Part shown: positions 35,164 to 35,837 of the stretch, piece by piece | How the letters are laid out: each line of letters opens with the position of its first letter | How positions within the stretch are numbered: the first letter of the stretch is position 1 | From: Thermoplasmata archaeon | GTDB taxonomy: Archaea > Thermoplasmatota > Thermoplasmata > Thermoplasmatales > Thermoplasmataceae | Assembly: GCA_021810045.1 (NCBI GenBank) | Contig: JAJZJR010000016.1 | Span: forward strand, 1 to 35,837 | Length of the DNA stretch: 35,837 bases | Direction of reading: 5' to 3' | The notes under the pieces: model-generated | Told to the model about the DNA's origin: nothing | Databases searched by the model: none | Seen by the model: the letters and a program-made list of their open reading frames with translations, nothing else | Made by a program: the position numbers and the translations under genes

Positions 35164-35365
35164 ACATATCGTGTTCTTTTATTTAACTCTGAATTCTACC
35201 AGTCTGCTATTTTCCCGGTATTCAGACGTCATTCAAAGAATCTGTGGAAAATAATCAGGATCCCGCTTTAGGCGCAAGCTGTGAGCTCTGAAATTTCAGT
35301 AACATGTGAATTTCTCTCACGGATAAACTAACATTTTTCTATTCGGTGATGATCATGCTTGCCCT

Positions 35366-35439
35366 GCCCGAGTGGGGTAATTTGGATATCCTAGGGGCCT
35401 GCGGAGCCTCAGATTCGGGTTCGAATCCCGGCTCGGGCG
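35366..35439 (+). tRNA. tRNA-Arg (GCG)
   Basis: Acceptor GCCCGAG pairs with CTCGGGC, discriminator G. The anticodon stem GGGGC/GCCTC (one G-T pair) encloses CTGCGGA, giving anticodon GCG. The T loop is TTCGAAT. The 3' CCA is not directly encoded. A structured, gene-free element begins about 40 bp after its 3' end. The gap 35164-35365 holds the MFS promoter and an ATAAAC box about 40 bp before the tRNA. Confidence 0.94.
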
Positions 35440-35478
35440 TCACCAATGATACTGACTTTATCATTTCGAGCGAGAAAA

Positions 35479-35837
35479 CCCATCCCATTCATGGGTGGGA
35501 TGAGAGCGAGACAATGAAAAATTAACTACAACAGAAAGGACATAACAGTGTCCATCCCCTGAAACGGGAAAACACTCCCATGAGGAGAAAGACGGTTAAG
35601 ATGGACTGTTCGCAAGAACATATCGGCATGGATGGCTTGTTTCCCGCGAGGGAAAGGAACGAATGCGTTAAGTCCTCCGTCCATGTCAGTCTGCCGAGGC
35701 GTAAAATAGTCAATAGTAGCCCTCTGACCCTCGCAAGGGAAGTCAACCAGCCAATCGTTGCGTTCCAGTGAAACCATGCTCACGGGCATGGAAGAGGACA
35801 GCAACAAGCCCATACCCTTTAGGGATGGGTAGTTGAC
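35479..35837 (+). mobile_element. Probable TnpB-less IS200/IS605-type element (MITE/PATE-like), right side at window end
   Basis: The stretch has no credible protein gene but has matching hairpins at both ends. Left: CCCA-T-CCCA, loop TTCA, TGGG-TGGG (35479-35499). Right: CCCAT-A-CCC, loop TTTA, GGG-ATGGG (35809-35829), then TAGTTGAC to the last base. Each has a single unpaired base in the 5' arm and a 4-nt loop, the form of subterminal hairpins recognised by single-strand transposases of the IS200/IS605 family. No tnpA or tnpB is present, so it would be non-autonomous. True ends and copy number are unknown because the window stops here. Confidence 0.5.
35542..35829 (+). ncRNA. Highly structured RNA candidate, omega-RNA-like
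   Basis: Reading the plus strand, several strong helices are visible: TGTTC-GCAA-GAACA (35607-35620, GNRA loop), TTTCCC-GCGA-GGGAAA (35640-35655, GNRA loop), a long-range 9-bp helix 35627-35635 with 35677-35685 enclosing the latter, CCCT-CGCA-AGGG (35728-35739), CCATGC/GCATGG (35774-35791) and the terminal hairpin 35809-35829. Such density and GNRA loops indicate selection on RNA. By analogy with TnpB systems the 3' terminal hairpin would be followed by a guide taken from flanking DNA. Transcription and any protein partner are not shown. Confidence 0.5.

Follow-up and report, generated by a model that had tools for sequence, protein, structure and literature searches.

A gene-less IS200/IS605-type element of Thermoplasmata with a conserved RNA that probably acts as an enlarged omega-RNA

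INTRODUCTION

The window, which is the complete stretch of 35,837 nucleotides analyzed here (contig JAJZJR010000016.1 of a Thermoplasmata archaeon), ends with a highly structured region that possesses no convincing protein gene. This raises the question of whether the region is a mobile element, to which group it may belong, and what its RNA may do. As outlined below, it is probably a non-autonomous element of the IS200/IS605 type without any gene, which provides an enlarged omega-RNA of its own and relies on TnpA and TnpB supplied in trans.

RESULTS AND DISCUSSION

Extent and ends of the element

The original prediction had placed the unit between positions 35440 and 35837. The right end was correct but not the left boundary: the element begins at position 35462, directly downstream of TTTAT (Table 1). 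The two predicted bulged hairpins are present as imperfect subterminal hairpins, CCCA-U-CCCA..UGGGUGGG at positions 35479 to 35499 and CCCAU-A-CCC UUUA GGG-AUGGG at positions 35809 to 35829, the latter followed by TAGTTGAC at positions 35830 to 35837. Hairpins of the same design at both ends occur in the other copies, as is characteristic of the IS200/IS605 superfamily. The right end composed of hairpin and terminal TAGTTGAC had been likened to that of an IS200/IS605 element, and the tnpB-carrying elements C39 and C52 of the same genome share it. On the plus strand, the region from 35457 to 35837 folds with −127 kcal/mol (z = −4.2 versus dinucleotide shuffles; z = −3.0 for the minus strand), and two stems are capped by GNRA loops as foreseen, GCAA at 35612 to 35615 and GCGA at 35646 to 35649.

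The last base of the contig (G000:C8) is also the last base of the element, and the right flank, the would-be guide, is outside the assembly. A contig break at this position is to be expected because the sequence of the element is repeated. The adjacency to a tRNA-Arg gene (35365 to 35441) had been reported correctly; the element is located 3′ of this gene at a distance of about 20 bases. A tRNA gene was present within about 300 bp of 6 of 59 copies (the window copy and those at L221, L150, L156, L233, and L043), which is above the rough expectation, and two of these copies adjoin tRNA-Arg GCG in different genera.

Table 1. Positions of the element, its predicted RNA features and its surroundings in the window
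Feature	Position	Strand	Evidence or comment
tRNA-Arg (GCG), genomic context, upstream of the element	35365..35441	+	ARAGORN, Rfam RF00005
TTTAT, insertion target and presumed TAM, outside the element	35457..35461	+	Left-end motif of copies, C67 empty site
Whole tnpB-less IS200/IS605-type element, 376 bp	35462..35837	+	Boundaries from copies elsewhere and empty sites
Left-end imperfect hairpin, type A	35479..35499	+	Common to the C39 tnpB element, more distantly to the C41 tnpA locus
A+T-rich box, candidate archaeal TATA box, −31 to −21 relative to the start of the RNA domain	35518..35528	+	A+T content, 23 copies
Extra 5′ RNA domain (P1-P3)	35549..35687	+	Covariance models R1 and R2, pair counts
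P1	35550-35554/35602-35606	+	
P2, GNRA hairpin	35608-35619	+	
P3	35625-35635/35677-35687	+	Inner GNRA hairpin 35641-35654
Omega-RNA stem 1, 5′ strand	35689..35693	+	GTCTG in the window copy, GGCTG in most copies
Insert forming small hairpins, located between stem 1 and the pseudoknot strand	35694..35741	+	Comparison with C39/C52
Pseudoknot strand GTCAAC, partner 35832-35837	35742..35747	+	A-U to G-C exchange, 7/26 sequences
Omega-RNA stem 1, 3′ strand CAGCC	35748..35752	+	U-A to C-G exchange, 5/26 sequences
Omega-RNA stem 2 (35757-35761 with 35801-35805), enclosing the stem 3 region	35757..35805	+	U-A to A-U exchange, 5/26
Right-end hairpin with UUUA loop, omega-RNA stem 4 and subterminal hairpin of the element	35809..35829	+	
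Pseudoknot strand GTTGAC and right end of the element	35832..35837	+	

Copies and tnpB-carrying relatives in the same genome

The genome contains up to four copies of the gene-less element. In addition to the window copy, there is a second complete copy on C67 (94%), one on C54 that is interrupted by the contig end, and the right part only at the start of C50, perhaps the other half of a contig-cut copy. The right 96 nt of the window element are common to the elements C39 and C52, and the left ~70 nt also to C39. The interior of C39 is a tnpB gene for a protein of 383 aa with the Pfam domains OrfB_IS605 and Cas12f1-like_TNB, and that of C52 encodes the same TnpB in a longer open frame. Full-length tnpB-carrying copies with the same ends had been named as supporting evidence and are provided by C39 and C52; such gene-bearing relatives place the gene-less element in the IS200/IS605 group. 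In the gene-less elements, an interior of ~220 nt, unrelated in sequence to tnpB (blastn, covariance models R1 and R2), takes the place of this gene, and an insert of ~48 nt (35694 to 35741) is missing from C39 and C52. Both types of left ends found on gene-less elements occur on tnpB elements as well. Of the unit as originally conceived, the two ends match those of tnpB-carrying elements, and the middle had to be corrected to a separate RNA domain.

Further TnpB families in the same genome (L015, L016, L019, and L243) are associated with other right ends, for example ...GAAGCAGGAAGCCCC, which indicates that several omega systems coexist in this genome.

Mobility and target site

Nearly all well-preserved copies have TTAT or TTTAT upstream of the left end; TTTAT likewise marks the left ends of the solo-tnpB elements of Sulfolobus islandicus (PMC10640517). 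When the flanks of the C67 copy were joined without the element, they aligned across the junction in two congeners (G004 and G002). The empty site in G004 reads TTTTTTTAT and, across the junction, GCA, which is exactly the left flank ending with TTTAT plus the right flank, so that no target duplication had occurred. A second insertion (G059) was missing in two congeners, with a poorly aligning junction. Insertion 3′ of a fixed AT-rich target without target duplication is again as in IS200/IS605 elements. Genes for a Y1 TnpA (Y1_Tnp) are present in the genome, and that on C41 is preceded by a left end of the same design. The empty sites and the near-identical copies at unrelated places support mobility of the element, one of the two options that had been proposed.

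The original prediction had alternatively considered a domesticated guide RNA. In this case, TnpB would be led by a fixed guide to a target of host or foreign origin, similar to TldR-like control. An insertion upstream of tRNA-Ser that is common to two species (L150 in G064, L156 in G067), with a well-preserved RNA in both, would fit this explanation. The flanks, and with them the guides, are unrelated among the copies, however, and even where the insertion is common to both species, the presumed guides differ beyond the first nine or so bases. As a near-identical copy of the window element was not found in the five congeners searched either, domestication is very unlikely, and this part of the prediction could not be upheld for the window copy. 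In both L150 and L156, the last base of the right end was changed from C to A.

Conservation and distribution of the interior RNA

The interior was matched by blastn in 14 of the 77 genomes of the family, and a consensus fold derived from 20 copies aligned by MAFFT had 26 of 64 pairs altered on both sides. The covariance model R1 identified 62 places in 31 of these 77 genomes. On the level of the order, R1 found the RNA in 35 of 117 genomes and 14 of 33 genera. It also recognized divergent copies outside this order but within the class, which were included in the construction of the second model, R2. With R2, the RNA was detected in 44 of the 399 genomes available for the class Thermoplasmata; these represent 21 of 102 genera and eight or more families. 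The window copy scored 164 bits with R1 and 155 bits with R2.

In 29 distinct sequences, 92% of the cells pair, and 34 of 42 pairs exhibit compensatory two-sided changes, with a covariation score of 0.455 versus 0.217 for shuffled sequences and 0.07 to 0.13 for slid partners; the underlying alignment was fitted to the covariance model and favours the structure, and the MAFFT-based fold gives the same stems without a model. Multiple copies with covarying stems, put forward earlier as evidence for a functional unit, are thus present in the genome and in the family. In the divergent copies, the stems were rewritten, and the architecture and the unpaired motifs GGUAAGGCACUC and AAGACGGUUNAAG were kept. 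Copies from family f12 (L293-L301 in G520, G507, G528, and G334) lack P1 and P2 while P3, the insert, and the omega-RNA core were retained, which indicates that the RNA domain is modular.

A known RNA family could have accounted for these structures, but none matched: in the window, Rfam 15 yielded no omega-RNA-type or other family matching the RNA even at E = 10, gathering and relaxed thresholds returned only tRNA, RNase P, and a chance CRISPR repeat, and four other copies had no match at E = 1. The core of a group I intron, as in a self-splicing IStron, was not found either (no intron family of Rfam was matched, even at E = 10). The RNA family appears to be new.

An exact-pattern scan of a contig collection resulted in 86 matches, mostly by chance. 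When 14 of the archaeal contigs were tested with the model, ten Thermoplasmata contigs contained the RNA. It was absent from the Archaeoglobales and Bathyarchaeota matches according to the covariance model, and five matches on viral contigs did not fit the model. A weak match in another class (G326) had no recognisable ends and was taken as chance.

Absence of a protein gene and of tnpB

The two longest open reading frames of the element had no match in Pfam. A minus-strand frame of 95 aa that is open in many copies was rejected as a gene: in the most open antisense frame, 180, 167, and 177 substitutions were located at codon positions 1, 2, and 3, respectively (16 copy pairs, P = 0.77), and many gaps between the copies were non-triplet. 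These results are in agreement with the predicted absence of a protein gene.

Around the inspected R1 places, tblastn with four TnpB proteins of the window's genome as queries did not detect tnpB, except for the last ~30 codons overlapping the right end. This holds for every copy inspected, as expected for the TnpB-less unit that had been proposed. Vice versa, the matches of R2 in about 25 tnpB-carrying loci did not exceed chance. This indicates that the extra domain and tnpB are mutually exclusive in the data examined. An origin of the middle from tnpB was also considered and discarded (no blastn match; best R1 or R2 match in tnpB loci 13 bits, E 0.02).

Could the elements nevertheless be dead debris of tnpB elements, with the structure as a leftover? 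Many low-scoring copies are visibly decayed, as debris would be, but dozens of copies from several families are well preserved and have two-sided changes in the majority of their stems, and the middle is not of tnpB origin, which makes this explanation hardly credible.

The omega-RNA core in the 3′ third

The 3′ third retains the core of an omega-RNA, composed of stem 1 (GGCUG:CAGCC), a pseudoknot (GUCAAC:GUUGAC), stem 2 (GUUGC:GCAAC), and the right-end hairpin. In the gene-less elements, 95% of the cells of stem 1, 95% of the pseudoknot, and 94% of stem 2 are paired, and two-sided changes led to variants such as GGUCG:CGACC and GGCCG:CGGCC for stem 1, GUCAGC:GCUGAC for the pseudoknot, and GUAGC:GUUAC for stem 2. 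The window copy has one mismatch in stem 1 (GUCUG, GTCTG in the DNA). A local pairing GGCUG:UAGCC instead of stem 1, which spans the insert, fitted 87% versus 95%, failed in other orders, and was rejected.

TnpA is known to require the terminal hairpins; stem 1, the pseudoknot, and stem 2 are not among its known requirements. Maintenance of these three parts in elements that would need only the end hairpins for transposition argues for a function of the RNA. This has to be weighed against a passive MITE, the right end of which was kept for TnpA only, and with P1-P3 as a separate cargo, for instance a ribozyme or an RNA beneficial for the host. Such a cargo would explain the strong conservation of P1-P3 and the module-like loss of P1 and P2 from the f12 copies while the rest was kept. 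It would not explain why stem 1, stem 2, and the pseudoknot covary in the gene-less copies and why stem 1 spans the insert, and no Rfam ribozyme matched the RNA of the element. A passive MITE is thus quite improbable compared to an element with an omega-RNA of its own.

In the cryo-EM structure of ISDra2 TnpB (PMC10097598), the omega-RNA has a stem 1 that encloses one strand of a pseudoknot, the other strand of which consists of the last bases. Stems 2 and 3 come next, and the right-end stem is capped by a UUUA loop. The window element has the same order of strands, including the hairpin with the UUUA loop, the 3′ strand of the pseudoknot as the last bases, and the would-be guide beyond. It differs from ISDra2 by the lack of tnpB, by the insert of ~48 nt between stem 1 and the pseudoknot, and by a conserved 5′ domain of ~140 nt with its own promoter-like box that replaces the tnpB mRNA. 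Since the 5′ part of the ISDra2 omega-RNA, −231 to −117, is dispensable for cleavage (PMC10097598), cleavage by TnpB alone does not explain the conservation of this 5′ domain.

Correspondence between the core and the TnpB elements of the same genome

In nine genomes that contain both kinds of elements, the right-end core of the gene-less elements was most similar to that of the tnpB elements in the same genome, with a mean of 0.81 versus 0.66 after permutation; none of 50,000 permutations was as high, and the own genome provided the best match in seven of the nine cases. The nine genomes include three from other orders, the TnpB proteins of which are about 31 to 48% identical to that of C39. 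In G051, the core had been cut about 30 nt too long for this test, which only lowered the score for the own genome; by inspection, the 95-nt core of the gene-less element is identical to that of the tnpB element. In G053, a shortened stem 3 is common to both kinds of elements.

The RNA was also more common in genomes with a close C39-type TnpB, 15 of 17 versus 16 of 60 (Fisher's test, P = 7e-6, uncorrected for relatedness or genome completeness). In the sixteen genomes with the RNA in which a close C39-type TnpB was not found, some copies were decayed and some genomes incomplete. Two genomes, G061 and G060, possess a C39-type tnpB element or remnant (L191 and L204), yet no R1 RNA was found in them; the tnpB of L191 is broken.

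A core that was retained and corresponds to the local TnpB, together with an extra domain found only where tnpB is absent, would also be expected from a decoy. In this case, the RNA would bind and titrate TnpB, or TnpA, in trans, and the element would be a MITE moved by TnpA that dampens TnpB, while the extra domain increases binding or blocks cleavage. However, a functional target layout, with TTTAT on the left and the flank directly following the pseudoknot strand on the right, is kept with each insertion, as would be expected of an active guide, and no feature indicative of an inhibition was recognized. A decoy is therefore improbable, and an active omega-RNA that probably uses the nuclease TnpB borrowed from other elements remains the preferred explanation.

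Proposed mechanism and role of the extra domain

The element is organized as left-end hairpin, promoter-like box, P1-P3, omega-RNA core, and right end. According to the preferred explanation, it would be excised, and inserted after TTTAT, by a TnpA from another locus. The transcript may continue past the right end into the flank and load the TnpB of a related element, which would then cut the resealed donor site consisting of TTTAT plus flank. Repair from an intact copy could bring the element back to the cut donor site. If TnpB is to cut the empty donor site of a copy and thereby promote retention of this copy, an RNA with the flank of the copy as guide is required. A gene-less copy could not obtain such an RNA from a tnpB mRNA, so that a dedicated folded transcript would serve this purpose. 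Most likely, P1-P3 supports the stability or folding of an omega-RNA for which there is no upstream mRNA.

A more far-reaching interpretation, possible but unlikely, would be that P1-P3 is a new RNA module that allows a gene-free element to exploit RNA-guided nucleases in its own way, for example by outcompeting the omega-RNA of tnpB mRNAs for TnpB, by recruiting TnpA to the ribonucleoprotein, or as a ribozyme. The family would then be a long-lived group of RNA-only TnpB parasites, which across the class have followed different clades of TnpB.

Comparison with known systems

MITEs and similar non-autonomous derivatives of the IS200/IS605 group have both ends of the parent element, no gene, and are moved in trans; they are usually internal deletions. 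The window element resembles them in its parental ends and the missing gene, but its interior is a covarying RNA that does not come from the interior of the parent and is shared across several orders. The IS605-orfB-I and -II, HEARO, and RAGATH-18 motifs are structured RNAs of IS605/IS607-type elements that were later recognised as omega-RNAs; in contrast to these, the window RNA matches no such family in Rfam 15. The TTTAT target is a likeness to the solo-tnpB elements of Sulfolobus (PMC10640517). Among the closest counterparts are the noncoding RNAs sRkB/sRkC and sRk48/sRk52 of Pyrococcus abyssi, about 210 nt long and with kink-turns. They originate from intergenic repeats that contain no gene and are relatives of orphan OrfB (tnpB) 3′ ends; sRkB and sRkC, similar to the tnpB end, were reported to be specific to P. 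abyssi, and an added domain like P1-P3 was not found described for these RNAs (PMC3124441).

The element type, the omega-RNA core, and transcribed gene-less relatives are thus already known, and because of the P. abyssi RNAs a gene-less omega-like RNA is not a new kind. As far as tested, new are the conserved extra domain, its mutual exclusion with tnpB, and the breadth of the family; a description of gene-less elements with such an RNA was not found in the open-licence literature. If the preferred explanation is correct, selfish elements may exploit RNA-guided nucleases without encoding a single protein, by means of a scaffold that is compatible with a neighbour's nuclease. This would be a testable case of TnpB parasitism, in which a conserved RNA domain was added to an omega-RNA and exists in many natural variants within the class. 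Genome annotation would then also be missing a class of omega-RNAs that are detached from tnpB.

Candidate promoter and related fragments

In 23 copies, the A+T content between −31 and −21 upstream of P1 was 0.82, compared to 0.58 and 0.53 in the two flanking windows (Wilcoxon P = 3e-4 and 9e-5, respectively), and position −27 was A or T in all of them. Judged from the sequence, this box is a candidate TATA box at the position expected for archaea, provided that the RNA starts at P1. P. abyssi offers a precedent, as its gene-less repeats with a relationship to orphan OrfB 3′ ends possess a BRE/TATA promoter of their own, located 24 nt upstream, from which they are transcribed (PMC3124441).

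A piece of ~55 nt from the P1 region also occurs in several species of genus g5 (L172 and L174-L176 in G033, G034, G032, and G030), where it directly follows a TATA-like stretch and precedes a gene for a ribosomal protein S6e-like product. At these sites, the piece may have been turned into a part of a promoter or 5′ UTR; at L172, a decayed longer copy is still visible.
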